Below are positions 59 through 25,500 of a DNA stretch of 64,000 bases, piece by piece. Numbering within the stretch: the first letter of the stretch is position 1; every line of letters starts with the position of its first letter. The notes below the pieces were generated by a model. That model had not been told where the DNA came from, did not search any database, and worked only from the letters and a program-made list of their open reading frames with translations. A program made the position numbers and the translations under genes. The stretch is from Apibacter adventoris (GTDB taxonomy: Bacteria > Bacteroidota > Bacteroidia > Flavobacteriales > Weeksellaceae), in the NCBI RefSeq assembly GCF_002964975.1, contig NZ_PSZM01000046.1, positions 62,001 through 126,000 on the forward strand, read 5' to 3'.

Positions 59-1246
59 TTATTTTTTATATATAAGTTTTTCTAAATAATGAGCTCCTTT
101 TTGTAATCCTCCTGCATTTATAAAAGACTTCTGTATTCTTTTTGCTCCATTTTTATATTTTTTATCATTAATAATAAGGTGTATAGCTTCTTTTAAATGT
201 TGAGATTTAAATCTGTTAAACTTTAACCTTATACCAGCAAAGTTTTCCGTTACACAACCTGAAACATAAGATTGATCATAAGCAATGGGAATTACAACCA
301 AAGGTATACCGAAAGAAAGCGATTCACAAACAGTATTATTACCTCCATGACATACAACTGCCTGCATATGAGGAATAATTTCTAATTGAGGTACTTTTTG
401 CTGTATAATAAAATTATCTGGAATATGTGTAAATAATTTAGGATCTGAAACTAAGACCACAGTTATTTTTTCATTTCTAAAAGCATCTATAACCTTATTA
501 AAAAAAACTAATTTTTGTTCATGATCAAAAGTAGTTCCGATACTAACTAAAATTTTAGGGCTTTTATTATCTAAATTTAATTTATCCCAATTGAAAGAAA
601 TATTTTCTTTACGGGAATTAATAATCGGTCCAATAAATTTATAATATGAAGGGAGTTGAGAGTCTCCAAAAAATTCTTTAGAAGTATATACTAATGTAAG
701 TAAATTTGAGCAATCAATTCTTTGATCTCCCATAATCCCATGTGTTTTTTGGAAAGCAATTACTTGTTCACTTTCCCATTGGTGAACCATAGGTAAATTT
801 TTGTTGATTTTTATAGAAGCAGGAGCAGTTACGGACGTTACATAGGGAATTTTTTGCTTAAAACAGCTTATTGCACCAGCAAATATCTGATGATCCGTAA
901 TCACAATATCAGGGGAATTATCAGTAAGTAGCTCAGAAATACCATCAATTATGTAATTATTCATAGGAATTAAAACGTCTTCGTATAAAAATTTTAAACT
1001 ATCAATTCCATAAACAACTTTTTTTTTGAGATGTTCTATATATGTTAGTAAATTACTTTTTTCTTCTTCACTCAAAGAAAAAGGAATAAGTAATAACTTT
1101 CCCTTTTCTGGGAGTTGTTTTTCTAATTCAGGATCAAAACTAATCCAGAAAACTTCATGGTTTCTTTCTATAAGTTCTTTTCCCAAACCTAATGTAGGAT
1201 TTATATGTCCCGTTAAGGGAGGTACTATAAAAAAAAATTTAGCCAT
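59..1246 (-). CDS. GT1/MGT-family glycosyltransferase
   Basis: A 395-residue GT-B fold glycosyltransferase of the UDP-glucuronosyl/macrolide transferase type. The N-terminus carries GHINPTL (residues 13-19), the acceptor-side signature. The C-terminal donor-binding half has HGGNNTVCESLSFGIP from about residue 300, a close match to the HGGxxTxxE signature of GT1 enzymes that bind nucleotide sugars; there is no signal peptide or membrane anchor. Length is normal for the family. It starts 18 bases after the alpha/beta hydrolase stop and is the fifth gene of the polyketide/lipid operon, so it probably glycosylates the assembly-line product in the cytoplasm. The sugar donor and acceptor cannot be read from the sequence. 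Confidence 0.88.
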   Translation of the reverse strand: MAKFFFIVPPLTGHINPTLGLGKELIERNHEVFWISFDPELEKQLPEKGKLLLIPFSLSEEEKSNLLTYIEHLKKKVVYGIDSLKFLYEDVLIPMNNYIIDGISELLTDNSPDIVITDHQIFAGAISCFKQKIPYVTSVTAPASIKINKNLPMVHQWESEQVIAFQKTHGIMGDQRIDCSNLLTLVYTSKEFFGDSQLPSYYKFIGPIINSRKENISFNWDKLNLDNKSPKILVSIGTTFDHEQKLVFFNKVIDAFRNEKITVVLVSDPKLFTHIPDNFIIQQKVPQLEIIPHMQAVVCHGGNNTVCESLSFGIPLVVIPIAYDQSYVSGCVTENFAGIRLKFNRFKSQHLKEAIHLIINDKKYKNGAKRIQKSFINAGGLQKGAHYLEKLIYKK

Positions 1247-1264: not shown

Positions 1265-2023
1265 TTAATTGAAAAATTCCATTAATTTTTTACTTATCCA
1301 TTCAGGGTTTTGAACCGGGAGATTATGGTCTCCATTTCCTTCATATAATTTAGAATTAGGGATAAGTTTATTCAATAACTTTCCATCTTCTAAACAATCG
1401 GATTGATTTCCATATAAGAGCAATATCTCTTGATGAATTGATTTCATATTTTCAGCAGAAGAAAAATCTTTATCTTTGATAAGATCCTTAGGCATAGTAG
1501 TTTCATGAAGTAGAAAATCAAAAAGTTTTTTACTTTTATTCAACTGTCTTTTATTGGGCGTTAATTGAGTAGATATAGAATAATTTCGCATATAATGTTC
1601 TAAAAACTCATTTCCGTATTTCTCTATGGTGTCATCTGTTCCGCTATCTGTAATTGGAGAATCAATAATTGCAATTTTTTGAGTTGATTCAGGATGATGA
1701 ATAGCAGTAAATAATGAAATTAATCCTCCGAAACTATATCCTACTAAGTTTGCCTTTTGAATTTTAAAAAAATTCATTAATGATATTAAATCATTAGACA
1801 TGGTTTTCAAATCATATCCATATTTTACCTTTTCACTTAACCCGTGGCTTCTTAAATCATACATGATAATATGGTGGGTTTTAGCCAGGTGTGTTGCTAT
1901 ATTGAAGTAAAACACAGATAAGTTCGTAAACATTCCGTGTATCATTATAATAGGATCCGGAGATGTTTCATTAAGTTCTAAAACATGAAATTTCTGATTA
2001 TTTATCTTTATTAGTGGCATCAA
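1265..2023 (-). CDS. Alpha/beta hydrolase, probable chain-release thioesterase
   Basis: A 252-residue alpha/beta hydrolase. It has the oxyanion HGMF motif (residues 29-32), the nucleophile elbow GYSFGG with Ser97, and a C-terminal GDH with His233; the acid is probably the Asp in the strand before it (QSDCLED). No signal peptide is present. The start overlaps the 3' end of the free ACP gene by 26 bases, a tight coupling that argues for a role on the ACP-bound product. In polyketide and fatty acid systems such stand-alone hydrolases act as release or editing thioesterases. Alternatives are a hydrolase tailoring the free product or an esterase of unrelated function. ATG codons at residues 1 and 2 are both possible starts. 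Confidence 0.82.
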   Translation of the reverse strand: MMPLIKINNQKFHVLELNETSPDPIIMIHGMFTNLSVFYFNIATHLAKTHHIIMYDLRSHGLSEKVKYGYDLKTMSNDLISLMNFFKIQKANLVGYSFGGLISLFTAIHHPESTQKIAIIDSPITDSGTDDTIEKYGNEFLEHYMRNYSISTQLTPNKRQLNKSKKLFDFLLHETTMPKDLIKDKDFSSAENMKSIHQEILLLYGNQSDCLEDGKLLNKLIPNSKLYEGNGDHNLPVQNPEWISKKLMEFFN

Positions 2024-2303
2024 TTATAAAGTTAATAATATCAATAATACGTAAGTTAATTAACTGATCCATATCTAATGTAGCAACCCAACCATTAAAA
2101 TCCATATCATCATTGTAGTAATTTTTAACTTTTTCAGCTAAAGCTACAATTTCAATACTATCCATTTCAAGATCTTTAGTAAAAGTGCTGTATTCAGTTA
2201 TCTCCAATTCATCTACGATATCTTCCCCTAAAACCTCAGTAATAAATTTTTTCAATAATTCAAATACTTCCTTTTTTTGCTTTTGTAATTCTATAGAGTC
2301 CAT
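1998..2303 (-). CDS. Discrete acyl carrier protein
   Basis: A 101-residue acidic protein with the phosphopantetheine attachment motif DLEMDSIEIVAL; the Ser of DSIE would carry the prosthetic arm. Helical pattern and size match a stand-alone ACP with a short N-terminal extension rich in Lys/Glu. It overlaps the preceding AT-DH-PPTase gene by 13 bases and the following hydrolase gene by 26, so it is embedded in the operon. It is distinct from the two ACP domains inside the megasynthase (which read LSIDSIKR), so it may load a starter, accept the finished chain for glycosylation or release, or act with the extra AT domain. Which of these applies is not visible. Confidence 0.88.
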   Translation of the reverse strand: MDSIELQKQKKEVFELLKKFITEVLGEDIVDELEITEYSTFTKDLEMDSIEIVALAEKVKNYYNDDMDFNGWVATLDMDQLINLRIIDIINFIIDATNKDK

Positions 2304-5200
2304 CCTATTATGTAATTATTATATTTAATTGTTTTAATCGTTGTATTACAAATTATTAAATCTTCTCCTTCAATTTTTTGTATTTCATACTGTTTTGGAT
2401 TTCCCTTTAATCCAACGCCTAACATTTTTCCATAAGCTTCTTTTGCAACCCAAAAACGGGTACTCCACTCATTATTATTTTTATCTTTTAGTAAATTCTT
2501 TTCATGGTTGGTTAGTGTATAGTCCAAAAAATTGGTTTCTCTTTCTTCAATTATTTCTATATCAATCCCCACAGGTTTCTCAGAAACTATACTAACAGAA
2601 TTTGTACCTTTATGAGCCAAGGATATTTCAATTTCAGAAGCTTCTTTTACTCCATATATGGAGGGTTTATTGTTAGCATCATACTGAATATTTATTTCTA
2701 TAGGGAAATATTTTTTTCCATATTTAGTTTCAATATATTTTCTTACATTATCTTTTAAAGCTATTCTACTTATTAAATAATCCTTTTTTTTATTTAATAG
2801 AAGAGAGTCATAATGTTTTTTTTCTTCCTCATTGAGATATATGTTCATTAAAAAATTCCAGTTCACCGCATAGTTATATACATTATTAAAAAAATATACA
2901 TTAGGACTTATTTCTTTTGCTAAAATGTTTTTATCAGGATTTAAAGTCATATTCCAAAGATTTTTATCAAATCCTTCAAATATTTGGTTTTTCCATCCTT
3001 TAATGATACACCAAATTTTGTTTTCTCTTTTTATAATTATATCAGCCGTAGAAATTTTATTATTAAAAGAAGTAGGGAGGCAAATACATTCAAAAACCCC
3101 TTGTTGATCTTGAACCTCCTGAAAGAAATTAATTTCTTCTATTTTAACGGGAAAACTAACTTTGGAATTTTCACCTAAAGTTAGTTGTAAGTATAAGCCA
3201 TAAAGTTGTCCTATATTATCTAATAAAGAACCTTTTCCTGTAGATTTTTTTATAAGAGCTCGAAGTCCCTTTCGGGTTATATTCTTTACTTCAAGAATTC
3301 CTTGGTAGCTAGGACCATGAAACATATGTTTTTTATAAATTATTTCAGGGCTTGGTATAGATACTATATTTTCACCCCAATCTATTTCCTGTAAGTATTT
3401 TGATTCAGGAACAGGATAATTATTTCCCAATTGCACTTCGCCACTAACAAAATTTTTAATTTTTAAGGAAATTTTATCTTTTGATTTCCAAATTCCTTCA
3501 ATTTTTTGATCAAATGGAGTATTCACTTTCATCCATTGAAAAACACTTACAGGCCCTAATTTGAGTACTTTTTGACTGGGATTTTGTTTCTGCGCGGCTT
3601 CCATTAGTAATTCTAACGTCATAGTCATAGGAATTACCGGATTTATATCACTTAAAATTTTCCAGTTTTCAGGTTGCTTAAATAGAGAGTGGTCTATCAA
3701 ATAAGGATATTCTTCCAAAGAGACATATAAGTTTTCGGTAAATGTATTACCAGTTCTGTCATATGATTTTTTATTTACGATGGATTCTTTTTCCGTAATA
3801 GAAGGATATGTTTTTTTAATAACAATATTTGTTTTTCTTTCTTTAAATAAACGAACGATTTGGTCCTGAATTAACATCATTTCTTTTATGTTCTCATTCC
3901 ACGCTCTTTCAACAGGGTCCTCAATATTTACGGAAAGATTATTAATTGCATATAATTGGGATAAATTTTCTTTAGTGTTTTCAGCGGTAATTGATTTAGA
4001 AGATCTTTTTATCGTAACAGGATCTTTAGTATCTGTAGAGGTTTTATTATTAATGCCTAAAAAAGAAAAATTTATTTCTTTTCCTTCTATATATAAAAGA
4101 GCAAGTACTCGTTTAAGTTGTTCAAGTGTAGATCTGCCGGAAATACAAGTAGATATGGCACTATAGTTTTTTGTTTTTAAAATATCATCTACAAATCCAA
4201 CTATATTTCCTATACCAATTTGTATAAATACTTTGGCTTTTTCTTGATAGTATAATTTTTCGATTAGCTCTCGAAAACGAACTGTTTCTGTAAGATGTTT
4301 AATGGTAAGTTCTTTAAATTCTTCAAAATTTTCTGGATAAAGATCTAATGTGGTAGCAGACCATAAAGGGATTTTACTTTTTTGTATTTGTATATTCTCT
4401 AATGCTTCATCAAGTATATGTAGGTGTTTTTTAATAAAAGGGGTATGAAATCCTGACTCGAAAGGTAATACCTGATAAAAAATTTTCTCTTTTCTAAGAA
4501 TATCGAGTAAAAGATCTCTTGCTTTTTCTGTGCCACATAGTAGAATTTGACTTGGACAATTATCCATAGACAAATAAAGATCGGGAATATTTTTTAACCA
4601 AGAATCCAATTTTTCTTTTCCAGAAGCAACTGCTATAAAATAAATTCCTTCAATTTTGAATTTATCAGGAATCATAGATTGTAATAAATATTTTATAGAA
4701 GATTCAGAAACTAAATCTGAAGCTTTTATTGCAAACCATTCTCCAAGGCTATGCCCTGCATTCATATCTGGATATATTCCTAACTTTTTTAAAGAATTGT
4801 CAATAATTTTACTAGCATTAAATAATTCTAATGATTGATTTAATAGCTTGTTATTATCACCAATATTATTTTCTGAGATGGAATAGTTAAAAAATTCAGA
4901 AATACTTTTAATTTCCGGATTAGTTACAGAATCAAATCCGGGAAATAAAAATGCAATTTTTCCTTCTTTTTTTAATACAGGGTCATTAGAAAACCAAATA
5001 TCTTGGCGTCCTTTCCAAGGTTTATCTTTGTCTATAAGTTTTTTTGCTTTTTCAACTCGTTCAAAAGTTGGATCAAAAATTATCAGTCGATAGTTTCCAT
5101 CATTATTTATTGTATTGGATGGTGGAAAGTCAGAAAGTATTTTTAATAAATCTTCTTTGGAATTAGAAGATACAGCAAGTACGTTAGCAATTTTTTCCAT
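2291..5200 (-). CDS. Acyltransferase-dehydratase-phosphopantetheinyl transferase fusion
   Basis: A 969-residue multidomain synthase subunit. Residues about 60-390 form an acyltransferase with FLFPGFDS and the nucleophile motif GHSLGEW (Ser151). A linker with charged helices follows. Residues about 490-700 form a double-hotdog dehydratase: DHSLF with His504, the VIPMTMTLE segment, HGPSYQG, and LLDNIGQ with Asp661 giving the DxxxQ of the second hotdog, so the His/Asp dyad is intact. The C-terminal 220 residues are an Sfp-type 4'-phosphopantetheinyl transferase with ISLAHKG, GIDIE (Asp880) and the WVAKEAYGK motif. It starts 10 bases after the megasynthase stop. This supplies the dehydration step and activates the ACPs. 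DH plus PPTase at a C-terminus recalls enediyne PksE enzymes, and the AT recalls PfaB of PUFA synthases. Confidence 0.88.
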   Translation of the reverse strand: MEKIANVLAVSSNSKEDLLKILSDFPPSNTINNDGNYRLIIFDPTFERVEKAKKLIDKDKPWKGRQDIWFSNDPVLKKEGKIAFLFPGFDSVTNPEIKSISEFFNYSISENNIGDNNKLLNQSLELFNASKIIDNSLKKLGIYPDMNAGHSLGEWFAIKASDLVSESSIKYLLQSMIPDKFKIEGIYFIAVASGKEKLDSWLKNIPDLYLSMDNCPSQILLCGTEKARDLLLDILRKEKIFYQVLPFESGFHTPFIKKHLHILDEALENIQIQKSKIPLWSATTLDLYPENFEEFKELTIKHLTETVRFRELIEKLYYQEKAKVFIQIGIGNIVGFVDDILKTKNYSAISTCISGRSTLEQLKRVLALLYIEGKEINFSFLGINNKTSTDTKDPVTIKRSSKSITAENTKENLSQLYAINNLSVNIEDPVERAWNENIKEMMLIQDQIVRLFKERKTNIVIKKTYPSITEKESIVNKKSYDRTGNTFTENLYVSLEEYPYLIDHSLFKQPENWKILSDINPVIPMTMTLELLMEAAQKQNPSQKVLKLGPVSVFQWMKVNTPFDQKIEGIWKSKDKISLKIKNFVSGEVQLGNNYPVPESKYLQEIDWGENIVSIPSPEIIYKKHMFHGPSYQGILEVKNITRKGLRALIKKSTGKGSLLDNIGQLYGLYLQLTLGENSKVSFPVKIEEINFFQEVQDQQGVFECICLPTSFNNKISTADIIIKRENKIWCIIKGWKNQIFEGFDKNLWNMTLNPDKNILAKEISPNVYFFNNVYNYAVNWNFLMNIYLNEEEKKHYDSLLLNKKKDYLISRIALKDNVRKYIETKYGKKYFPIEINIQYDANNKPSIYGVKEASEIEISLAHKGTNSVSIVSEKPVGIDIEIIEERETNFLDYTLTNHEKNLLKDKNNNEWSTRFWVAKEAYGKMLGVGLKGNPKQYEIQKIEGEDLIICNTTIKTIKYNNYIIGWTL

Positions 5201-5209
5201 GTTTTTTAA

Positions 5210-8200
5210 TCAAATTCCGAAAAATTGTTTTACTCCATCTCCTTCACCCATGATCATAATCTGTTTTTCAGTTCCATATTTTAATTCATCTATAAAGGAT
5301 TTTGCACCTTCTTTAAGAGGAATTAAAGAAATTCCTCTTTTATTAAATTCACTTTCTAATGCGCTTGATACCATTCCGGCACCCTTCCATGGTCCCCAAT
5401 TAATAGTTAAGATTCTTGAATTGTTTTTATGGGTATAAATTTGTGCGATAAGATCAAAAACGCTATTTGCAGCAGCATAATCACACTGGCCTCTATTACC
5501 ATATACAGAGGCAATACTACTAAAAAATGTTATAAATTTTACATCTGGCTTAAGTTCTTCAAATAGTATATGTAAAGGAGTTATTTTTGTAGAATATACT
5601 TGTTTAAAAGAGTCTAAGGTCTTGTGTGCAAATAATTTATCGATTAATAAGCCCGCAGCATGGATCACTCCATCTATTTTTCCATCTTTTTTATAAATGT
5701 TTTGAATGAGTTTTCTGAAATTTTTTTCATTTGTAATATCAACAGATTTATAAGTCACTTTTGACCCGCTTTCTTTAATCTTAGTTAATGTTTTAATAAT
5801 TTGATTTTCTTTATAGATATTATTTACTTTTTTTTCAATTTCAGCAGGAATTTTCATCTTTTCTTCAGAAATTAAAAATTCTCGAATTTCATTCTTTGAA
5901 GAAAAATGAACATACTTTTTATTTTCTGGTTTAGGTATAGGTGATCTTCCTACTAAAATATAATGGCATGGATATTCTTTGGATAAATGGATAATAAGCT
6001 CTGAAGTAATTCCTTGCGCTCCTCCTAGTACTAATACTACCGAGTTTATGTCTAATTGGAGCTTTGAATCTTTAGTCTTCGATAAAGGTTCAGAAATAAT
6101 ATTATAACGGAATCGTTCTTTTTCTTTATATATTATTTCAGAAGAAATATCGCTTATACTTAATTCGTTATGTACTATTTCGGAAATAGATTTTGTATTA
6201 AAAGGAGAATAAGAATTTATACATCTACAGTTAATGTGTGAATATTCTCGAGCTATACTTTTGATAAATCCAGGGAATCCTTCTATTTGATTTAGTTTTT
6301 TGATATCTTTTTCTTTTTTCAATTCTACAAGAGTATCGCTAAAAATAAAAATCCATTCTACATTTTCCAGATTTAACTGTTTTACCATTTGGAAAACATC
6401 ATCTATTTTATAATGAATGGATGATTTAATAGTATCTAAGAGAATTAAACCATTGTAATCGGATAAATCTTCATTTCCATTAATTATATCAACCTTAGCT
6501 CCTTTAGATTCTAGTTTATTTTTAACGTTTTTAGAAAAACTACCTCCATCATCTACAATTGCCAATTTTTTATTATTTATATCTAAAATTTTAGCATCTG
6601 GATCATTCCATTTTTCTAAACTAAGTTTGGCTCTTAGAAGAGTAGTTTCTGTATTATTTTTGTTTATTAAGGTTGATTCTAATTCTGATATAGATTTATT
6701 ATCAAAAGAAATAGAATGATTTATATGTTGTTGAGCATGATTTATTAAAGAAAGGTTTTCAGGATTAGTTAATTCCTCTATCCATTTTATCATTCCATTT
6801 AAAGTTTTAATAGAAGCCATTCTTTCTATGGCGTCTTCAGATTCTTCCAGATCATCAGTAAAACCTAGTTTTTCTCTTAGTGCTCCAATAATTTCCATTC
6901 TTTTTATAGAGTCTATACTTAGGTCTGCTTCTAAATCTAGATCTAGTCCTAACATATCTATAGGATATCCTGTTTTCTCACTTACAGTTTCCAGTAATAA
7001 AGCTTTTATTTCTTGGGCAGAAGGTATGGAAAATGGTTTATCAGTTGAAGTTACGAGATTAGTGGTTATTGTATTATCTAACTTCTGAGAAATTTCTAAA
7101 CTTGATTGGTTATTGATATTTTTTTTATTTTCTTTAGCTAATTCCTCAATCCATTCTATCAAACCATTTAAAGTTTTAATAGAAGCCATTCTTTCAATCG
7201 CGTCTTCAGATTCTTCCAGATCATCAGTAATGCCGAGTTTTTCTCTTAATGCTCCAATAATTTCCATTCTTTTAATAGAATCAATACTTAAATCAGCTTC
7301 CAAATCCAGATCTAATCCTAACATATCAATAGGATATCCTGTTTTTTCGCTTACAGTTTCCAATAAAAGTTTTTTTATTTCTTCTACAGAAAAGTTTGAA
7401 TTTGCAGATGTAACAATGGTATCTACATTCATTGAGGACTGTATAGATACTGATTGAGGTAAAGATTCTGTATTTGCAGTTTGAATAGGTACCTCTATAG
7501 AAGGAGGTTGCCCTAAATATCCGAGCATAACATCTCTTTGATTTTGAATTATGGATTTCATATTGTTCAAATATTCCAGAATTACCTGCTCTGAATTAGA
7601 AAGAGAAGAAATATTATCAATTGAATTACCGGACATACCATTAATTTTAACTGGTTTAGTGATTGGTAAAGCTCCATTAGAAGGCAATTTGCCAACAGAT
7701 GGAATAGCATTATGTCCATTTATCAACCATAATGTTGAATTTTTTTTGTATTGTTCCGGATTATCAATATCTAAAATGTGTACATTTCTACCATCAAATA
7801 ATTTTTCAACTTGTATTGAATTTCCTGTGGATATATATTGAGCTAGTGCTTTTAGTATAAATTCTATTCCTTCTTCATTTTTGTCTTCTGTCTGAATTGT
7901 AGTTATTTCATCTTTTCCTAAAATGGTTTGAGCTAAATTGATTAAAACTCTTCCCGGACCAGTTTCAATAAAAATTCGTGCGCCATGGTCATATAAAGCT
8001 TTAATCTCTTTGCTAAATAATACTGGTTGAATGAGATGTTCGGATAATCGTTCTTTAATCTTAATAACTTCTGACGGATAGGCATCTGCTGTTGTATTAG
8101 ACCATACAGGAATAGTAGGTTTACTAAAGCTAATTTTCTTTAAATATTTTGCATATATATTTTTTGCTTCTTTTAGTAAAGGGCTATGAAAAGCACAATC

Positions 8201-11200
8201 TACAGCTAGTTCTTTGGAAGAAATATTTTTTTTATTTAATTTTTCTACAAAAGAATTCATTGCAGTAGTTGTTCCTGCTAGTATAATCTGTTTTTGGGAA
8301 TTAAAATTAACCGGCCATATTTCCTTTTCTCCTTGTAATAATTCTTTAAGGGATCGTTCATCAATACTAACAGCAATCATTTTTCCTTTATCATCTTTTA
8401 CTGCTTCTAATATAGCATTAGCTCTTTCCCGACTTAAAAAAACTAAATGTTCAGGAGCAAAGACTCCAGAAAAGCATAAAGCAGGTAATTCTCCATAACT
8501 GTGTCCTGCAAGAATATCAGGTTTTATTCCTAAAGAATGTAGAAACTTTGCTATAGCTAAATCTACAATACCTAATAAAGGCTGAGTATTTTGGGTCTCT
8601 GTTATAGACTTTTTTTGTTTAAGTAAGCTTTCATCATCAAAAACTGCATGCGGAAATATTACTTTTTCATATTCTTTATTTTGTTGTAATAACTCTCTCA
8701 TAGCAGGAAAGGCAACAAATAAGTCTCTGGCCATATTGACCCTTTGACTTCCTTGTCCAGAAAATAAGAAAACTATTTTCCCTTTTTTAAGGTTTCTTAG
8801 GTAAATTCCTTTTTCATTTTTTTGATTAGAAAGTATAACATCAATCTTTGATAATAAATCTTCATGATTGGTAGCTACAATACAAATCTGTATATCTTTT
8901 TTATTATATAAGGATAAACTATAAGCTATATTCTTTAAAGGGAGTTTATCATTGAAATGTAATAATTGTTTGATTTTTTGTAATAGGCTTTGAGCTTCTT
9001 CTAAAGTATCTCCACGAAATACAAATAGCTCAGAGGGCCAAGACGGAAGCGTACTTTGAGTAGAAATAGTAGGCTGATAATTCTCCATTACTACATGGAA
9101 ATTTGTACCCCCAAAACCAAAAGCACTAATTCCAGAAATTCTTTTGTCATTATTCCAAATTCCTGCTTTTTTATTGAAAACAAAAGGGCTGATTTCTTTA
9201 TTATAAAAAGGATTAGGTTTATTTAAGTGTAAAGTTGGAGGTTGTATTCCATAATAGGTAGAAAGAGCCGCCTTGATTACTCCAGCAATACCTGCTGCAC
9301 ATTTGGTGTGGCCAATTTGTGTTTTTACTGATCCTAAATGTGTTTGACCTTTTACAGCCCCCGATTCTAAAAACATGTCTGTTAGAGCACTAAGTTCAGT
9401 GCGGTCTCCTACAACAGTTCCAGTACCATGAGCTTCAATTAATTCTACTTCTGAAGGTAATATACCCGCATTTTTATAAGCTCTTTGTAAAGCTTTAATT
9501 TGACCTTTTTTATTAGGAGCGGTCATACCTAAGTTTCTACCGTCACTGCTACCTCCTGTACCTCTTATAACTGCATATATTCTATCATTATCCCTTTCGG
9601 CGTCTTCAAGTCTCTTAAGTATTATCATGCCAATTCCTTCTCCTAGTGCAATTCCATCAGATTCAGAATCAAAAGATGCGCAATATCCTTTTTTAGACAA
9701 AGCATAAGTTGCTGAGAACATAAGGAAGTCGTTTAAACCATTATGTAAATCAGCCCCCCCTAAAATCACAATATCAGATTTGTTATTTTGTAATTCCTGA
9801 TATGCAATATCCAAAGCAGCAAGAGAAGAAGCACATGCGGCATCTACTGTGAAATTACTGCCACCTAAATTAAGACGATTTGCTATCCTCCCTGCCACAA
9901 CATTGGATAAAACACCTGGAAAAGAGTCTTCATTTAATTTAGGAAGCATTTGTTTAAATTCTTCTGGTAATTCACCAAATACTTGTTTTGCATATCCACG
10001 AAATCCATATGCTGCTGCTAAATCTGTGGCTCCTTCAGCCCCAATTATTACGGAGGTATTTTCTCCGTCAAACGTAGCAAGATCATAGCCGGCATCTTCT
10101 AGTGCTCTTTTAGCAACCAAAAGGCTAAGTAGCTGAACTGGTTCTATGGAGGCTAAAGATTGTGGGGGGATGCCAAATTCTAATGGATCAAAGTCTATAG
10201 TAGGAATAAATCCACCCCATTTGGAAGATACATAATCTGTATCTCGCGTTTCAGGATTATAAAAAAGATCTTTATTCCAACGAGAATCGGGAACCTCAGT
10301 TATACTATCTTTCCCTAAAATAATATTTTTCCAATATTCATCTAAATTTTGAGCCCCCGGAAAAATTCCTGCCATTCCTACAATAGCAAGTTTTACAGGT
10401 TCATGTGGGGGAGTAGGTTCTTGAATTTTGTCTAATTTTAAAATTAATGCTTGACTATTTATAGCAACACGTGTATGCAATTCTTTGATGGATATAGCTT
10501 TATCTTGTAATGCGGCTATTTGTCCGATCATATAGATACCTTTTTCTACTTGTTCTTTATTATTTAGATAAATGAGTTTATCTCCTTTTCTTTCGATTCC
10601 TTTAGAAGCAATGCGTAAACGTCCGATATTCAATTCTTCTAATTTGATCCAAACTTCTTTAGAATCTAAACCTTGAGATAGAAGTTGTTGTTTTTTCTGA
10701 TTAAAATAATCAATAAATGGAGAATCTAAAGCACGCGTTTCCTGTCCTGGAGCAGCTTCTAATAAAACGGTTTTGTCTTGATTTATAGCTTGTGTTTGAT
10801 ATTCTGAAACTATGGCTCCTGTGTCTACAGCTTCTTTTGTATAGAGATATGAAGACCCCATTAATACTCCTATTTTAGCTCCTCTTGCGGCTAAAGTAGC
10901 AGTCATGATAGAAATGAAGGCAGAGGAAAAATCGTTGTGTATTCCTCCTGCAAAAAAAAGATTAAGCGAAGGAATGTCTTCTTGTTTTAATAATCTGAGA
11001 ATTTGTTTTTCCCAGAGAACTAAGCAGGATAAAGGGCCTACATGCCCTCCACTTTCTCTACCTTCAAAAATAAAATTTCGTGCACCTTCTTTTAGAAACA
11101 TATCAAGTAAAGATGAGGAAGGTACGTGTAAAAATACTTTAATTCCTTCTTTTTCATATGGTTTGGCTAAAGAAGGTCTTCCTCCTGCAATAAGAACTAT

Positions 11201-12340
11201 GGGGGGCTTAGCTTCTAAAATATACTTCATTTGTTCATCTCTCAGCTGAACAGGTGCAAAACCTAAAATTCCTACTCCCCACGTTTGATCTTTGAGAAGT
11301 TTTGCAGTTTTTAATACTGTATTTTTTGCCGTATTTCCCTGCATAAGACTCATAGCTATAAAAGGTAAGGCTCCTTCCTGAGATATTTTTTTAGCAAATT
11401 CAGGAACATCGCTTACCCTTGCCATAGGCCCTTGCGCTATAGGAAATTTTATATTCAGATCTTTACATAAATTATTTTCAGAACTTAATATGTTTAAAGA
11501 TTGAGCTTGCAACAAATGTCCATATGATGCTTCATGAATAGCAAAAATAAAATGAGATAAGTTTTTATATTGATCCACAAAGTTGACGGACAATGTAATA
11601 TCTTGCCCCATGGGAAGAATGTTTTGAGATAAATCTGCTCCTCCTAAAAAAGGAATTATATCATTATATGTAGGATTCTTAGGTAAAGAAGGGGAATTTT
11701 TTCTTAAAAGAACCCTAAAATTATCTATTAAAATGGTTTCGCTACCACTTAGTTTACTTAATATATTTTTAGTTTCTTTGTTTAAAGTACTGCATTCCGG
11801 GAATAAGGCGACTTGACTATCCAAAATAATTCCTTTTGCTCCAAGGGCTAAAGCAGCTGCTGAGGTATGAATTCCCATCCCTCCTTGTAAATAAATATTT
11901 ATAGGAAGTTGTGAGTAATTTTTCATTATTCCTTGAAATAATACAAAAGTAGATTCATAGGCTACTTTACCTGCTCCTTCATTTCCTTTTAATATAATAT
12001 TTTTTGCTCCGTTTTTAATTGCTGTAATTGCTTCTTCCAGAGAGTATACTTGATAATATAATTCAATATTTTTTTTAGGAGAGAACTTTATGTTTAAAGG
12101 AAGAATTACTTTGGAAACATTTTTTGGTAATTCTATTGAAGATATAGCTTGGGATGAATAACAAACCCCAAAATGATTTTTTGTTTTTTCTGACAGGTCT
12201 TTTAAACATTGTTCAGCTAATTTTTTATTATGTCCAAGATGTAAAATCGGGAATGCCCCTGACTTAAAAGTGTTTAATGCTAAATTAACATCCGGAATTT
12301 CAAAAGGAGAAAGAACGAATAACTCTTTTTTTTCTTGCAT
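5210..12340 (-). CDS. PUFA/PksE-like type I megasynthase (ER-ER-KS-AT-ACP-ACP-KR)
   Basis: A 2376-residue iterative type I synthase. Residues 1-290 look like a degenerate nitronate-monooxygenase barrel (QGGMGIHTS, ALGAKG). Residues about 295-640 are a second, better preserved barrel (FPIAQGPM, GRESGGHVG, FFAGGI) of the PfaD enoyl-reductase type. KS spans about 645-1080 with Cys836 in DAACASS, EAHGTGT and the GHTKCAAG histidine. AT spans about 1185-1480 with FSGQGSQ and Ser1281 in GHSYGE. Two ACPs carry LSIDSIKR at Ser1688 and Ser1811. KR occupies the C-terminus with GGAQGI near 2104 and catalytic SSIASVYG...Tyr2288. DH and PPTase are on the next protein. No second KS or chain-length factor is visible, unlike classical Pfa systems. 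With KR, DH and ER the set could make fully or partly reduced chains. The product is unknown. Confidence 0.92.
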   Translation of the reverse strand: MQEKKELFVLSPFEIPDVNLALNTFKSGAFPILHLGHNKKLAEQCLKDLSEKTKNHFGVCYSSQAISSIELPKNVSKVILPLNIKFSPKKNIELYYQVYSLEEAITAIKNGAKNIILKGNEGAGKVAYESTFVLFQGIMKNYSQLPINIYLQGGMGIHTSAAALALGAKGIILDSQVALFPECSTLNKETKNILSKLSGSETILIDNFRVLLRKNSPSLPKNPTYNDIIPFLGGADLSQNILPMGQDITLSVNFVDQYKNLSHFIFAIHEASYGHLLQAQSLNILSSENNLCKDLNIKFPIAQGPMARVSDVPEFAKKISQEGALPFIAMSLMQGNTAKNTVLKTAKLLKDQTWGVGILGFAPVQLRDEQMKYILEAKPPIVLIAGGRPSLAKPYEKEGIKVFLHVPSSSLLDMFLKEGARNFIFEGRESGGHVGPLSCLVLWEKQILRLLKQEDIPSLNLFFAGGIHNDFSSAFISIMTATLAARGAKIGVLMGSSYLYTKEAVDTGAIVSEYQTQAINQDKTVLLEAAPGQETRALDSPFIDYFNQKKQQLLSQGLDSKEVWIKLEELNIGRLRIASKGIERKGDKLIYLNNKEQVEKGIYMIGQIAALQDKAISIKELHTRVAINSQALILKLDKIQEPTPPHEPVKLAIVGMAGIFPGAQNLDEYWKNIILGKDSITEVPDSRWNKDLFYNPETRDTDYVSSKWGGFIPTIDFDPLEFGIPPQSLASIEPVQLLSLLVAKRALEDAGYDLATFDGENTSVIIGAEGATDLAAAYGFRGYAKQVFGELPEEFKQMLPKLNEDSFPGVLSNVVAGRIANRLNLGGSNFTVDAACASSLAALDIAYQELQNNKSDIVILGGADLHNGLNDFLMFSATYALSKKGYCASFDSESDGIALGEGIGMIILKRLEDAERDNDRIYAVIRGTGGSSDGRNLGMTAPNKKGQIKALQRAYKNAGILPSEVELIEAHGTGTVVGDRTELSALTDMFLESGAVKGQTHLGSVKTQIGHTKCAAGIAGVIKAALSTYYGIQPPTLHLNKPNPFYNKEISPFVFNKKAGIWNNDKRISGISAFGFGGTNFHVVMENYQPTISTQSTLPSWPSELFVFRGDTLEEAQSLLQKIKQLLHFNDKLPLKNIAYSLSLYNKKDIQICIVATNHEDLLSKIDVILSNQKNEKGIYLRNLKKGKIVFLFSGQGSQRVNMARDLFVAFPAMRELLQQNKEYEKVIFPHAVFDDESLLKQKKSITETQNTQPLLGIVDLAIAKFLHSLGIKPDILAGHSYGELPALCFSGVFAPEHLVFLSRERANAILEAVKDDKGKMIAVSIDERSLKELLQGEKEIWPVNFNSQKQIILAGTTTAMNSFVEKLNKKNISSKELAVDCAFHSPLLKEAKNIYAKYLKKISFSKPTIPVWSNTTADAYPSEVIKIKERLSEHLIQPVLFSKEIKALYDHGARIFIETGPGRVLINLAQTILGKDEITTIQTEDKNEEGIEFILKALAQYISTGNSIQVEKLFDGRNVHILDIDNPEQYKKNSTLWLINGHNAIPSVGKLPSNGALPITKPVKINGMSGNSIDNISSLSNSEQVILEYLNNMKSIIQNQRDVMLGYLGQPPSIEVPIQTANTESLPQSVSIQSSMNVDTIVTSANSNFSVEEIKKLLLETVSEKTGYPIDMLGLDLDLEADLSIDSIKRMEIIGALREKLGITDDLEESEDAIERMASIKTLNGLIEWIEELAKENKKNINNQSSLEISQKLDNTITTNLVTSTDKPFSIPSAQEIKALLLETVSEKTGYPIDMLGLDLDLEADLSIDSIKRMEIIGALREKLGFTDDLEESEDAIERMASIKTLNGMIKWIEELTNPENLSLINHAQQHINHSISFDNKSISELESTLINKNNTETTLLRAKLSLEKWNDPDAKILDINNKKLAIVDDGGSFSKNVKNKLESKGAKVDIINGNEDLSDYNGLILLDTIKSSIHYKIDDVFQMVKQLNLENVEWIFIFSDTLVELKKEKDIKKLNQIEGFPGFIKSIAREYSHINCRCINSYSPFNTKSISEIVHNELSISDISSEIIYKEKERFRYNIISEPLSKTKDSKLQLDINSVVLVLGGAQGITSELIIHLSKEYPCHYILVGRSPIPKPENKKYVHFSSKNEIREFLISEEKMKIPAEIEKKVNNIYKENQIIKTLTKIKESGSKVTYKSVDITNEKNFRKLIQNIYKKDGKIDGVIHAAGLLIDKLFAHKTLDSFKQVYSTKITPLHILFEELKPDVKFITFFSSIASVYGNRGQCDYAAANSVFDLIAQIYTHKNNSRILTINWGPWKGAGMVSSALESEFNKRGISLIPLKEGAKSFIDELKYGTEKQIMIMGEGDGVKQFFGI

Positions 12341-12531: not shown

Positions 12532-13899
12532 CTATATAGCATATAAACTTTTCAATTTATATGTTTGGTATATTAAAAAAAACACAGCTAAGATTGTAGA
12601 AATTATGTCGGATAGAGGGATGGAAAGCCAAATTCCATTGAGGTTGAAAAAATTAGGGAGTATGAAAAGAGAAGGTATAAGTACTAAAAATTGTCGTGTC
12701 ATACTCAAAAAAAATGATAAAATAGCCTTTCCAATACATTGAAAAAAGTTAGAAACTACCATTTGAAATCCACTTAAAGGTAGAGTTACGGTCATTATTT
12801 GTAATGCTATAGATGCCTCCTTCGCTAAATTTGGTGAAGGGTTAAAGGGTTGTACAACCCAATTTGGAAGAAAGAAACCAAATAATAAACCTAAGAATCC
12901 TATAAAAACTCCTACTTTTATTGTGTAAATTAAAGTTTCTTTTACTCGCTTCATTTTTTTTGCTCCATAATTATATCCTATTATAGGTTGCATTCCTTGA
13001 GTAAGTCCAACCAATATCATAATAAAAACCATGGTTAAACGGTTAGCAATAGTATAAGCCTCAATAGCTGTACTTCCTCCAAATTTTTTTAATTGATTAT
13101 TAATGAAAAATATGACAAGAGAAGCGGCTATTTGCATAAAAAATGGAGCAAAGCCTATGTTAATGATGGACCAGGTAATATTTGCATTTATTCGTACTCT
13201 TTTCCAATGAAATAATAGAGTATGTTTTTTTTGGAAAAAATGTATCATCACTACAGTTACACCTATAAGCATGGATATTGTAGTAGCTATGGCAGCCCCT
13301 TTCATTCCCCAATTGAAAATAAAGATAAATATAGGAGCTATGATAATATTGGCTATAACTCCTATGAGCATGGTATACATAGATTTTTTAGGATATCCGG
13401 ATGCTCTCATTATACTATTGAAAGCAATATTTAAAGTTAAAAATATATTTCCGGGAAGGTAATATTGTAAAAATTCTTTGGCATATGGAAAAGTTTCTTC
13501 CGTTGCTCCAATAGAAATTAATATGGAATCAATATATATGTATATCCCGAAGACGGTTATACTTGTTAAAAATATAGTAAGCAAAAAGGAATTACCTACC
13601 ACTTTTTCAGCAGATTGTTGGTCTTTTTTACCTAAATATAATGAAACTCTTGTGGCAGCTCCTGCTCCAATTAATAAACCTATTCCTGAAATTAAATTCA
13701 TAATAGGAAGTACTACGCCTAGTCCCCCTATAGCATGATCTCCTAAATTTGGTCCATGACCAATATAAATACTATCTATTATATTATATAAAGCAATTAC
13801 AGTAATACCGATAATTGAAGGAATAGCATATTGCCAAAGAAGATTACTAATTTTTTTATTTTCTAAATCTTCTATATTTTTACTTTTGTAAATTTCCAT
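12532..13899 (-). CDS. MATE-family efflux transporter
   Basis: A 455-residue polytopic inner-membrane protein with about 12 hydrophobic segments and the two-fold repeat of the MATE family. Diagnostic stretches are the N-terminal LLWQYAIPSIIG, the GLGVVLPIMNLISG and GAGAATRVSLYLGKK region, and the second-half GLTQGMQPIIGYNYGAK. These transporters export cationic drugs or metabolites using Na+ or H+ gradients. The gene is transcribed in the same direction as the megasynthase operon and ends 191 bases before its ATG, so it may export the product or protect against it. It could equally be an independent multidrug pump, since a possible terminator and promoter lie between. Confidence 0.9.
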   Translation of the reverse strand: MEIYKSKNIEDLENKKISNLLWQYAIPSIIGITVIALYNIIDSIYIGHGPNLGDHAIGGLGVVLPIMNLISGIGLLIGAGAATRVSLYLGKKDQQSAEKVVGNSFLLTIFLTSITVFGIYIYIDSILISIGATEETFPYAKEFLQYYLPGNIFLTLNIAFNSIMRASGYPKKSMYTMLIGVIANIIIAPIFIFIFNWGMKGAAIATTISMLIGVTVVMIHFFQKKHTLLFHWKRVRINANITWSIINIGFAPFFMQIAASLVIFFINNQLKKFGGSTAIEAYTIANRLTMVFIMILVGLTQGMQPIIGYNYGAKKMKRVKETLIYTIKVGVFIGFLGLLFGFFLPNWVVQPFNPSPNLAKEASIALQIMTVTLPLSGFQMVVSNFFQCIGKAILSFFLSMTRQFLVLIPSLFILPNFFNLNGIWLSIPLSDIISTILAVFFLIYQTYKLKSLYAI

Positions 13900-19539: not shown

Positions 19540-22500
19540 TTATCTGTAACTTTCATCATAATTTCTAAGTAAAATCCAACCGGTAAACTTTCTTCCATCA
19601 GCAATTGTAATAATATACCAATAGGAGGTGGTAGGCAGGTTACGTCCTAAATATTTTCCATCCCATAAGAAACAATTATCAGATTGTTGTTCAAAAACTT
19701 TTTTACCATAACGGTCAAAGATCTTAATTTGAGAAGGGGAGTTAAAAAGATTTAATCCACAAAGTTTCCAGGTATCATTATACCCATCCCCATTAGGGGT
19801 AATCGCATTAGGAACTTTAAAAATTATTCCTTTAGAGGTAATAGCTTCGCATCCGTTAGCTTTAGAACGTACATAAAAAGTATATATACCCGGTTCTAAA
19901 TTAGTAAAAGTATTACTAGTCTGCCAGTTGATATTGTCTATGGAATATTCTAAAGGCTGAGGTCCTTTAGCTATAACTGTAATATAATTATCGCCAGCTT
20001 TAAGCTCTAAGATAACCGGGTCTTCCAAATGTTTTGCTTCAACCTTAAAAACGACAGAACAAGTTAAGTTATAATTTAAATATTTAGTAACTTTTAATGA
20101 ATATACTCCTATATCTTTAACTGTGAAATATCTATCCGTACTTATAACTTTACCGTTTAAAGACCATTCCCATTCATCAAAATTTCCTCCGTTAAGTTTT
20201 AAACTGTCAATTCTAGGACAGAGATAAATGAATTTTGGTAAAGGATTATCAGGGTAGTAGGTTTTTAATTTAATTTTAGCTAAGGAAGGACATTTTTTTC
20301 CTATAGGATTTAATTCGTCTAATCTTACATAGACATAATCAACTTTAGGATTTAAATTTTGATAGGAACTAAAATTAGTTTGTTCATTTTGTTGTTTTTG
20401 GGCATCTTCTAAAGATGAAAAGTAAGAAAACTTAACATTTGTTTCAGAAAGAGAATTAACAATATCAGCATTTACCAGCGATAAATCAAAAGAAGTGTAT
20501 CCGTCATTATCTCCATCACAAGCTTCTAATTCTACTTCTTTGTTAATTAAAGAAATTTTAGGATTTGTAGTAATTATAATAGTATTTACATTTATACATC
20601 CGGTTATTTTATCTACAACTCTTACAAAAATATTGGTATCAAAGGAGTTAATAATATATTTTTGATTTTTAGGCAATTCAGCATTATTTTTCCATGCATC
20701 TTCTTTTGTAAGAAAATATGAGAGGTTATAATTAGTAGGGGTATCTATAAAACCTATATGATCTAACTGATCAGGAATAATATAGAAAATATCGTCCAGA
20801 TCATCATCACAAATAGGCATAGTGAAAGGTCTAGGCTCGGGAGCTTTAAGTTTATTCATAGTGATCTTATTAATCCTAAAACAACCTTTAGTTCTGCTTT
20901 CAAACCGTACATAAATAGTTGTGTTACCCAATACAGGCAAATAGTTTGTAATAGCTGCAGTAGGAGTATCTAAATCGCCTAAGGGAGCTACTCCTGTTTC
21001 TGCATCTGTAAGATTTGTATAGAAAGTAACATGCAGGTCATTAAGTTGGTTTGGATACAGATTTGTTTGCATAGAGCTGATTTTTGAAGTCAGGTCTATA
21101 CGGGTATCATTGCCTGTACCATTTTCAAATTGACAAATATTGCCTATGTCATAATCCTTTGTACGAATGCTTGGATATACGTTAAGGTTTATTACAGCAA
21201 TACTATCACAATATCTATCTGCCGAAATTCTTACATATACTTTATCATTATATTTTACAGTATTTTCATAATTGGTAAGTTCTTGTTCATCAATAGGATT
21301 TTTGTTATTTTGGGCGTCATCTTCTGTTTTAAAATATTTAAATTTTGTATTATTATCCGGGAGATATTTCGCCCAAATATCTTCCACCGATTTTAGATTA
21401 AATAAACTCTTTCCGTCATCATATCCCGGTTCGGTATTTTCATCACATTTATCTAGATTTATTCCAGTTTTATTGATAGGATCTTTTTTATCGATAGGAA
21501 CTTTTTTATTGACTAGAAAGGATATTCCTACGATAGAATAACATCCGGTGTTATCATTTTTATCGATTCTTGCATATATAATATAGAAGTTAGGGTCAGA
21601 TCCATTTCCGTGGGTAAGATTGTTTTCAGAAAAGGTAAAATTTGTTTTATTTAATAAATCATTGGGATCTTGGTTTTTGGCTCCTGTAATAGTTGAGTAA
21701 TATGTAAAAGGATACAGGCTGTTTATAGTAGTAAGTGTTTCCCCAGGAATTATTCTTTCTCTATATTCATCCAGATCAGGAATAACAAATTTACCATCTA
21801 TATGCCCATCACTTTCATCACAGATTTCCGGGAATATATCTTGAGCTTTAGGAGAACTATAAAGGGTAACATTTAATTTTTTAATAATGTAACACTTGTT
21901 GATTGAATCACTTCTAAGTATAAATTTTACCCAAATCTGACTGGCAGGGGTTATTATATAATTATTAATCTCAGTATCAGGAATTTCATTAATGCCATCT
22001 ACTGCATTTTTTCTTGAAGTATAATAAGTAATTTTAAAATCCTTTGCATTAGATTTATTATTATCAATCATTTTTGGAGGATATTCTTCAAGGTTAATTT
22101 CTTTAGACATTTCCCCCGCAACACAAGATATAATTTCACCATCTTTTATTTCCCCTTTATCTTTAAAAGGATTTAAGGCATCTATTGTAAAGGATTTGAT
22201 TGAAAAACAGCCAAAATTTTTGTCTTTAACCCTTGCCCATATAGTTTTCGGAAAAGAATTGATAATATAAGCAGATGATTTAGCATCTATATCATTTTTA
22301 GCATCTTCTTCAGTATCATAATAACTAAAGTTATAGCCGGAGATGTTATAAGATAAATCCAATATTTTAGTTCTATAATCATCAAGATTTACAATTTCTT
22401 TGGTCTCTCCATTTTCATTTCCAGTATTATTATTACAAATAAAGAAGGAAAGAGGAGAGCTATTTAATTTAGGAGATTCTTTTAAATCAAATTCTATTTT

Positions 22501-25500
22501 GGTAATAATAGGGCAATCTCCTGTATTTTTTAATATTCTTACCCAAATGAAATTGGTAGGTGTGACAGTAAATGTTGTAAGGGAAGCAGTAGTATTATTT
22601 GTTGCCTCTTCCTCTGTGGCAAAAAACTTATATGTGGTTGTTGGAGGACCTGTTAATCCCGGATTTACAGAAATAAACTGATCCTGTATAAACTGAGTAG
22701 TTACAGTTTCTTTTTTATCGTTTTCACTATCACAAATATTAATAGTTTGGTTAATAATGTCAAGAGGAAATATAAATGTAATTTTTAAAGGTATAACTTT
22801 TACACATTGGGTTTTTTTATCATATACCCGCATATAAATAATGTGCTCATTATTAACACTATTATAGATTAGAGGATTTCCATCATAAACTCTTCCTCCT
22901 AAAAGGGTTCCATTATCGCCATTCAAGGCTCCTTTTTCAGTACTATAAAAAGAAATAACAGAATTAGAGTCCTTACTAATGATGAATTGATTTAAATCAA
23001 TTTTTCTATTTTTATCATTTTTATTAGCACAAGGAAAAAGCTCTGCATTATACTCTGGTAATGATATAGAAGTTTTTGAAAATTCAAATTTTATTTCTAC
23101 AAATATAGGGCATTCATCTTGTATTTCTAAACGGGCCCAAACAGACATTGGAGAAGTGTTTACTTCAAAATTTTCAATATTTGTGATATATTGATATGGG
23201 TAATTGACGCTGGCACTTTCTATAGTATTATAGTAACGAATGGGGGTTTTTAATTTTGCTAATTGTGCGGGACTAAGTAAAGCTTTTAAATCTTCTTCAT
23301 AGTTAGTTTTGTTTAGAATATTTATTATTTCTTTATTATTATTATCAAAATCACAAACCTCATAGGGACCTATAATTTTTTGATTTATAGGGGAGAGAAT
23401 AAAATGGATTTCATGTTCATAAATACAACCAAAAAATTTTAGATAGACATAAATAGTTTTTTTTTCAAATTGTACAACTTCAGTTTCATTAATATAATTT
23501 TCTAGAGTGTTGTCTAATTTATAGTCAAGAAGGTCTTGTTTACTTTTAAAAAATAAAATATTTGTGGCCCTATTTGAATAGTATGAATTAATAATATTTT
23601 TGTATTTATTATAAAATGAAACTTTTTCCTTTCCTAGCCCATCAATATAAGTATCACAAATGAAAAATACGTCCGGATCTATTTCTGATTTTGCAGAGGC
23701 AAAAACCGGAAATTTGACAGATGTTTCTACTCCGTTGGATTTTATTTTATAAACAGCCTTTATGTTTCTGGCACTGGGAACGGATACAACATAGGTATAA
23801 GGAGGGGTTTTAGTTATTAATTCATTTGTTTTAAGATCATAAAAACCAACAATATCTATTTTATCCAGAATTAGTCCGGGAGGCAAATAATATCTTAGAT
23901 AATTTTTATCTAATTTTACAGTATAGGAGGTTTTGTCAGCATTACATAAATTAAGTCCACCGCCACCGCCACCGCCAGCACCACCATCGTCTATATCATC
24001 GCTGCATTTTACAGGTTTAAATTTTATTTGACTATAACCTTCGCAATAATCTTTTGAAGTGGCTTTCACGTATATAGTGGCACTTAATGTTATGGTAGCA
24101 GATTTAGGATCACTAATCTTATACCAGTAAGAATAGCTAGGATCCGTAAAATATTCAAAAGTAAGTCCATTGGTAGGAAAATTAATTAATTGAGATTCAT
24201 GTTGGGTCAAATCATATTTAATGGTTTGGCCTTCAATTACATCGCATATCTCGAATTCCTCTTTAGGTATATTTAATCTTATAGTCTTCTTTAATTTTAT
24301 TTTAAAGGGGACGATAGTGAAACATGACGGATCATTATAATTGCTATTCCAAACTCTTAAATAAAAAGTTTTTGTGGCATCAGGTTCACCATTTACATCT
24401 AAATTAAAAGAATTTTCATTAATTTCTCCTATTCCGTTTTGGGCATCGCTCAAAGAAGTAAACACTTTGTGATAAGTACCCGATAAACCTTTGAAATTAT
24501 AATTTTTTATTTTAATTATTTTTTTACCACCATTATCCGGATCACATTCTTCGAAATATTGATTTTCCGGAACGACCGGTTTCTTATTTAATTTTAAATT
24601 AATTTTACCTATTGTATAACAAACTCCCTTTTTCAATACCTTTACATATATAGTCTTATCATTAGAGTAAACATAGTTCTTCGGGTTGTTAATCGGGTTA
24701 ATAGGGATAGAATTTGTATCTAAATTTTCGAAATAAGTAAATATTAATGATTGGTCTGGATTTATTTCTGATTGATAACCAGTCAAATCTATAGTATAAT
24801 TTTTACCGCTATCTAAACAGAAAGCTTGCGTAGTAATTTCTTTGACCTTAGGAAAGTTATTTGAAAATTTAACGTCTATATCTTCTTTTATCTTAAAGGG
24901 AGAACATAAATTGTAAGTTACTTCAACAGAATATTTACCATCTTCTGCAGGTTGTACAATAATTGTTTTTTTATTTCGGGTTCCTGAAATTTCAAATCCA
25001 TTATATTTCCATACTATGGTTATATCTGTATTACCATTAGGAGTAAACCTCCAGCCCTCATTATGAGCTTCCCAGTTTCCGCTATTTCTGCCGGGAGCAA
25101 TAATACCATTACTGGAATCATAATTGGTTAGCCCTACAATTGCATTTTTTCTGTAAGCATTGTCCTCATTAAAAATAGGATTAGTGCTTTCATTTTTATA
25201 TCGGTCTTTTATATAAACATCAATGATATTAGTTGTTTCATAGAGTATGATTTGAGAGGTAGAATTTTTGTTAGGCATAGGATAGCCATATTGGGGGATA
25301 TTGTTATAATTAATGATTACTTTTCGGTTAGGATATGTGCCTTCTACCCGATATCTAACCTCATTTATATTTAACATATCATGAAAGACGCCAAAAATTG
25401 AATTTTTAGGAAGTCCACTGATTAAGGTATTAACTGGAGCATAGGGACATTCATCTTTTGCCAATTTTGTGTTAAAACTAACGACCCCGTTATCACTAAT

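Follow-up and report, generated by a model that had tools for sequence, protein, structure and literature searches.

Why would a lipid synthase carry, ahead of an apparently intact enoyl reductase, a second barrel of the same kind whose catalytic residues are replaced? This question is raised by a gene of Apibacter adventoris, whose genome is 2.75 Mb. We analysed a stretch of 64,000 nucleotides from this genome (positions 62,001 to 126,000 of contig NZ_PSZM01000046.1; hereafter, the window) and compared the locus with related loci in other bacteria.

Domain order of the synthase

The gene is a single open reading frame of 2376 aa on the minus strand (5210-12340), in which Pfam models detected NMO, KS, AT, two PP-binding stretches, and KR. 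The PfaA-type arrangement of KS, AT, tandem ACP, and KR was confirmed by TIGR02813, which scored 1034.8 bits, above its cut-off of 1010.1. We read the full order as ER1-ER2-KS-AT-ACP-ACP-KR. The putative pseudo-reductase ER1, a degenerate barrel of the FabK/NMO type, takes up residues 1-285 (11486..12340), and ER2, a predicted FabK-type flavin enoyl reductase domain, residues 286-640 (10421..11485). Then follow the KS with the active-site motif DAACASS (residues 651-1085; 9086..10390), the AT with GHSYGE (residues 1188-1497; 7850..8779), two ACP domains with motif copies at residues 1675 and 1798 (6797..7378, outer limits approximate), and the KR (residues 2101-2319; 5384..6040), all on the minus strand.

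A sequence-only reading of this DNA had proposed two enoyl-reductase-like barrels fused in tandem to the N-terminus of a KS. This arrangement holds: the domains lie in one frame, and both hhalign and AlphaFold2 support the two barrels. The motifs quoted in that reading are also present, with QGGMGIHTS at residue 152, ALGAKG at 165, GRESGGHVG at 427, and FFAGGI at 462.

Homology and predicted fold of ER1

Searched alone, ER1 matched the Pfam NMO family at 5.2e-4 with 19.9 bits, below the curated cut-off of 28 bits, and its profile found FabK in the PDB at 1.6e-7. Performing hhalign comparisons, whose E-values refer to single comparisons, we find that ER1 aligns with eight stand-alone FabK-like proteins over 231 columns (E 2.8e-16, probability 98.7) and with ER2 over 162 columns (E 9.2e-11, probability 97.0, 23% identical). 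FabK was the best NCBIfam match of each of these eight proteins, at 282-329 bits, all below the cut-off of 453. Four control regions taken from the synthase itself (KS, AT, KR, and a linker) reached probabilities of only 0.10-0.31 against ER1; thus, we rejected a chance likeness of ER1 to FabK. A profile comparison had been suggested as a check on the first domain, and its FabK-like outcome is the strongest sequence evidence that ER1 is a putative barrel.

We also predicted the structure of the two domains together. The AlphaFold2 model of residues 1-646, built from five sequences (mean pLDDT 62.9, pTM 0.54), shows eight strands in TIM-barrel order in each half. The predicted strands span residues 6-10, 30-34, 57-60, 75-81, 93-98, 114-118, 148-152, and 170-174 in ER1, and 301-303, 327-329, 355-359, 381-385, 401-406, 422-426, 460-464, and 489-494 in ER2. 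In agreement with the barrel claimed earlier for residues 1-290, no fold other than a TIM barrel was obtained there. In this model, ER1 resembled TIM barrels of other families (TenI and KDPG aldolase) with Z of 14.7-14.9 and rmsd of 2.6-2.8; these were four matches among the best 50 rows, covering model ranges from 3-180 to 3-255. ER1 was modelled poorly in isolation (pLDDT 57.5). For this isolated model, Foldseek placed FabK on top at E 3.1e-6 but with a TM of 0.36, and the best VIA Z was 8.6, level with unrelated TIM barrels.

Family assignment of ER2

The sequence-only reading had assigned the second barrel to PfaD/nitronate monooxygenase. ER2 matched Pfam NMO at 1.1e-16, and its predicted fold agrees with PfaD (Z 19.6) and FabK (Z 20.4) about equally well. 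By sequence, however, ER2 is FabK-like, and we rejected its identity as a PfaD: the PfaD model TIGR02814 was unmatched by ER2 at E<=10 and unmatched across the whole genome at E<=0.001, and the sole NCBIfam match of ER2 at E<=10 was FabK TIGR03151 (2.3e-29; 102.6 bits against a cut-off of 453). FabK was found in the PDB at 3.4e-18 with ER2 and at 8e-23 with a five-sequence profile, and PfaD was hit in neither search, with no chain of that name at E<=1 in the latter. Against the eight stand-alone FabK-like proteins, hhalign gave ER2 an E of 6e-18; KS, AT, and KR reached probabilities of 0.47-0.67 against ER2. We therefore place ER2, by its sequence, provisionally in the FabK/NMO branch. The distinction from PfaD matters because FabK is reported to be just ~20% identical to the ER domains of PKS or PUFA synthases (PMC13311796).

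FabK residues 1-3 align with residues 286-288, and ER1 fills the place preceding ER2, where PfaD has a subdomain of ~80 residues. Judging from its family, intact motifs, and setting, ER2 is presumably a working, FMN-binding enoyl reductase.

Catalytic and FMN-binding sites of the two barrels

The FMN and catalytic sites described for TIM-barrel enoyl reductases are a motif I Met, the motif III xEAGGH with the catalytic His, and the phosphate-binding Gly-Gly and Gly-Thr (PMC13311796). We checked these sites in an alignment of 19 rows to which 33 were added, one of them being the window again; removal of repeats left 46 genomes or plasmid records. Seventeen of the 46 had been found by ER1-containing queries, and only the 29 ER2-found members are unbiased on the retention of ER1.

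The sites are kept in ER2. In the window, its motif I is QGPMARVSD (residues 303-311; 11408..11434, minus strand) and its motif III is GRESGGHVG (residues 427-435; 11036..11062, minus strand), with the catalytic His433 at 11042-11044. Met306, Glu426, Glu429, Gly431, Gly432, His433, Gly465, Gly466, and Gly495 are each present in 46/46 members, and position 496 is Thr in 43 and Ser in 3.

Several of the sites are replaced in ER1. The counterpart of xEAGGH in the alignments is GNEGAGKVA (residues 119-127; 11960..11986, minus strand), in which Lys125 (11966-11968) takes the place of the catalytic His. The first barrel had been called degenerate and said to lack an equivalent of GRESGGH; the degeneracy stands, but the equivalent is not missing. 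Position 125 is Gln in 11 members, Leu in 11, Lys in 10, Trp in 5, His in 3, Arg in 3, and Met, Ser, and Tyr in one each. Glu is absent from position 118 in all 46 (Lys 43, Arg 2, Val 1). The pairs Lys125/His433 and Lys118/Glu426 were aligned by hhalign itself. At the aligned position 13, Met occurs in none of the members and Phe in 40 of 46. With Lys125 and Phe13, the ER1 of the window has neither the catalytic His nor the motif I Met of an active reductase. The loss of this Met is less certain, as motif I of ER1 precedes the hhalign-aligned columns (which start at residue 17-19), and the assignment comes from aligning the family and from the location just behind strand 1. In the phosphate loop, Asp174-Ser175 stands against Gly-Thr, and Asp174 is found in 43/46 members. 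This match was taken from the FabK alignment; the direct ER1-ER2 hhalign alignment is shifted by one residue here, and the Gly is absent in both registers. Other positions of ER1 are retained: Glu121 and Gly124 are invariant (46/46), and Gly153 and Gly154 are each found in 45/46.

Analysing 31 rows of the genus g20, we find that position 125 has an entropy of 2.34 bits next to nearly invariant neighbours. Of 621 positions, it ranks first by the excess of its entropy over that of its surroundings; as the rows are not independent but related, the rank is descriptive rather than a probability. We read position 125 as a site apparently freed from catalysis in a barrel that would still be kept for structure. 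ER1 is the faster-evolving barrel (mean entropy 0.52, versus 0.23 in ER2). At least 258 of its 276 columns are filled in every one of the 46 members, and its invariant positions number 17 in 50 rows and 127/276 among the 31 rows of g20. ER1 also has conserved features of its own, namely an LDSQ loop (173-176) in most rows and a GQ (245-246) that is mostly followed by Asp. Taken from these alignments, the view that ER1 is a pseudo-reductase conserved across Bacteroidota, Streptomyces, and Alphaproteobacteria is well supported.

Distribution and age of the tandem

An ER1 query (E<=1e-6) matched 4 of 395 Bacteroidota genomes, the source genome included, and an ER2 profile (E<=1e-40) matched the same four. 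Within the source organism's own family, 100 of 296 genomes, from 2 of 33 genera, matched an ER2 query, with open frames of 1788-2397 aa. ER1 was present in all 30 of the loci fetched from this query (30 of 101 matches taken). The tandem barrels were likewise observed in Mucilaginibacter and Fulvivirga, and plasmid-borne tandems were found in two Streptomyces, Beijerinckia, Methylosinus, and one Rhodobacteraceae bacterium. The evidence from beyond Bacteroidota thus consists of five plasmid records, two of them the nearly identical Streptomyces ones. The ER1 of the Rhodobacteraceae bacterium is very divergent (21% identical to that of the window), and in Methylosinus the annotated gene start cuts into ER1. 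A second, divergent tandem synthase was observed in a genome of the same genus (L067, G001:C54), 60% identical over the two barrels.

We built an unrooted tree of 36 rows (14 + 14 + 8), using 14 of the 19 alignment rows (L003, L007, L008, L009, and L028 were omitted). The ER1 rows form one group and the ER2 rows another, across phyla, with 100/99 support each; the long branches d1_L027 and d1_L025 were flagged. A recent local duplication as the origin of ER1 was rejected on this grouping, and the separate groups suggest that the ER1-ER2 tandem is old.

The operon and its surroundings

The synthase is followed on the same strand by a partner of 969 aa (2291..5200), read as AT-(DH inferred)-phosphopantetheinyl transferase, a probable free-standing ACP of 101 aa with an LEMDSIE motif (1998..2303), an alpha/beta hydrolase that may act as an off-loading esterase (1265..2023), and a UDPGT/MGT-type glycosyltransferase (59..1246). 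A second glycosyltransferase of 396 aa, 36% identical to the first, lies just beyond the window. After it, on the same strand, we noticed a 528-aa protein, hydrophobic by eye (L073:2279-3865(-), just outside the window), which may be part of the operon. A Pfam scan of the 101-aa frame gave no match. Such a frame was seen in all three loci looked at for it (the window, L063, and L070), and Streptomyces has an annotated acyl carrier protein at the corresponding place. Upstream of the synthase are a MATE family transporter (12532..13899, minus strand), which adjoins the synthase in seven other loci of the same genus (some cut by the locus end), and a two-component pair. Farther away, a 2113-aa protein (19540-25881, minus strand) has the C-terminal CHU_C type IX secretion signal as its sole Pfam match at E<=1e-5.

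The DH of the partner has no Pfam match to PS-DH in the window; the Streptomyces homologue carries a PS-DH domain, and we infer the DH of the window's partner from full-length alignment. A search of the 969-aa partner for a ketoacyl-synthase was also without a match (E<=1), so the partner lacks the second KS, or KS-CLF, of PfaC/PfaBC. The partner is without the N-terminal KS region of ~450-480 aa that its Bacteroidota and Streptomyces homologues have. Among the partners of six genomes of the same genus, we observed that the KS Cys is replaced in four (DASEVSS, DASELSS, or DASTASS, with EANGT for EAHGT), that L065 shows neither KS motif by pattern, and that L066 keeps the Cys. Cys and EAHGT are both kept in five g20 loci, Mucilaginibacter, Fulvivirga, Streptomyces, and the second copy in G001, L067.

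The order of synthase, partner, hydrolase, and glycosyltransferase recurs in five other loci of the Apibacter genus (L062-L066), all of which have a second glycosyltransferase as well, and in five g20 loci (L068-L072) and Streptomyces. In the g20 loci, the glycosyltransferase place is taken by one protein of 801-803 aa; the one scanned (L070) contains two glycosyltransferase stretches. The hydrolase and glycosyltransferase had no match in the Beijerinckia, Methylosinus, and Rhodobacteraceae loci or in the fetched stretch of L067; the absence of this operon from the three alphaproteobacterial loci counts against the explanation favoured below. Because the operon in the window holds an AT, a probable DH, a PPTase, a probable free ACP, a hydrolase, and, with the one just beyond, two glycosyltransferases, its likely product is a glycosylated long-chain lipid; a glycosylated lipid is likewise suggested for other loci where the set is complete. 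The locus would mark an uncharacterised gene cluster of glycolipid type in bee-gut and related bacteria.

Proposed role of ER1

Our best explanation, which we favour with no more than even confidence, is that ER1 is a tethered, FMN-less dimer partner of an active ER2 in a Pfa-like synthase; the same even confidence covers, as part of this explanation, a secondary-lipid synthase of the iterative, Pfa-like kind with the 2376-aa protein as its first subunit. ER2, as an FMN-bound barrel of the FabK type, would reduce the ACP-borne trans-2-enoyl chain. As read from the sequence alignments, ER1 is a second FabK/NMO-like barrel with replacements at the catalytic His, at the Glu preceding motif III, at the Gly-Thr of the phosphate loop, and apparently at the motif I Met, whereas neither its length nor the residues conserved within ER1 itself have been lost. 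Being permanently tethered to ER2, it would convert what was a homodimer into a pair within one chain and fix ER2 onto the KS dimer. TIM-barrel enoyl reductases are reported to require dimerisation, and thraustochytrid ERb alone is insoluble and FMN-free, forming a stable dimer with ERc (PMC13311796). A dimer partner is therefore the most likely role of ER1, in line with the structural or dimerising function that the sequence-only reading had named among its options. Counting in favour are also the homology and predicted fold of both barrels, the site record of the 46 members, the joint occurrence of ER1 and ER2, and the conserved operon. Counting against this explanation are the 3 of 46 members that have His at the catalytic position of ER1, the faster evolution of ER1 relative to ER2, and the pTM of 0.54 for the two-barrel model. 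Somewhat more tentatively, the family may represent a class of lipid synthases, spanning no fewer than three phyla, whose once homodimeric FabK-type reductase has become a single chain with one active and one dead, FMN-free barrel, the dead half being obligate and setting the stoichiometry on the megasynthase.

Several other explanations have to be weighed against the dimer partner. ER1 might be a docking or gating module that keeps the ACPs, or else the partner subunit, beside ER2. Its own LDSQ loop and GQ agree with such a role, as does its location where PfaD has the N-terminal subdomain for which a contact function has been proposed (PMC13311796). However, the stand-alone FabK-like proteins have a GQ towards their end that aligns with the one in ER1, so some of this conservation reflects the mere fold, and we regard this role as possible but rather unlikely. 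It is less probable still that ER1 gained another ligand or activity by way of its phosphate loop, changed from GT to DS, and Lys/Arg118: these replacements are conserved (Lys/Arg118 in 45/46, Asp174 in 43/46) and do not look like random drift, but the old catalytic position 125 varies freely, which argues against chemistry at the same site. A functionless, decaying relic would account for the faster evolution of ER1 and for the loss of its cofactor and catalytic residues. The nearly full length of ER1 throughout the 46 members from three phyla, of which only the 29 found with ER2 are unbiased here, and its invariant positions in both the 50-row set and the one-genus set speak against decay, and we consider a relic the least credible of all the readings.

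ER2 itself might be a FabX-like dehydrogenase/isomerase or an oxidase resembling nitronate monooxygenase. It shares the superfamily with these enzymes, and FabX structures reach Z of up to 15.5 against its model; FabK structures nevertheless score higher, FabK is the sole NCBIfam match (though at 102.6 bits), and the KR and the DH (the latter by homology) in the setting leave an enoyl substrate. We hold such an activity of ER2 to be highly improbable, if a little less so than the relic. The family is a clear natural record of which half of a reductase pair may lose its catalytic residue, and would allow a simple test of whether TIM-barrel enoyl reductases require two active sites or just a dimer.

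Comparison with known systems

PfaD had been described in the sequence-only reading as normally a separate protein, a generalisation weakened by published fusions. A fused pfaDA with a pfaBC-PPTase partner is reported for Aquimarina TRL1, Flavobacterium N502540, and Ottowia, and likened to Renibacterium (PMC13291983). The M and N types of Shulse and Allen are found in Actinobacteria and Bacteroidetes, their products being given as uncharacterised, and Chryseobacterium gleum is listed in the same paper (PMC3098273). These synthases share with the present locus the pfaD-pfaA fusion and the PPTase-bearing pfaBC partner (PMC13291983, PMC3098273). A second barrel goes unmentioned in the parts of these texts available to us, whereas there are two here, one of them degenerate; the comparison is by description, and the published synthases may hold the same tandem. 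In the titles and abstracts of the open literature searched, a degenerate ER barrel in such synthases was undescribed. The PfaD-PfaA fusion is thus already published, and the putative degenerate second barrel would be the new part.

FabK, the stand-alone enoyl-ACP reductase II, is the nearest sequence family to ER2 and shares its predicted fold and motifs. Unlike the ER1-ER2 pair, it is described as a free-standing dimer (PMC13311796) and has no fused pseudo-copy. The thraustochytrid PUFA synthases were called unique in a 2026 paper for their two TIM-barrel reductase domains (PMC13311796), and the present family would set beside them a bacterial one with two reductase barrels in one chain. The likeness lies in the two TIM-barrel reductase domains per synthase, which in thraustochytrids form the ERb/ERc heterodimer (PDB 9SDD, PMC13311796). 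ERb and ERc lie on separate proteins, are 75-80% alike and near PfaD, and both have FMN and the catalytic His (PMC13311796). The Apibacter ER1 and ER2, unlike them, stand in tandem, are FabK-like, and are 23% identical over 162 columns, and one of the two is without the catalytic residue.
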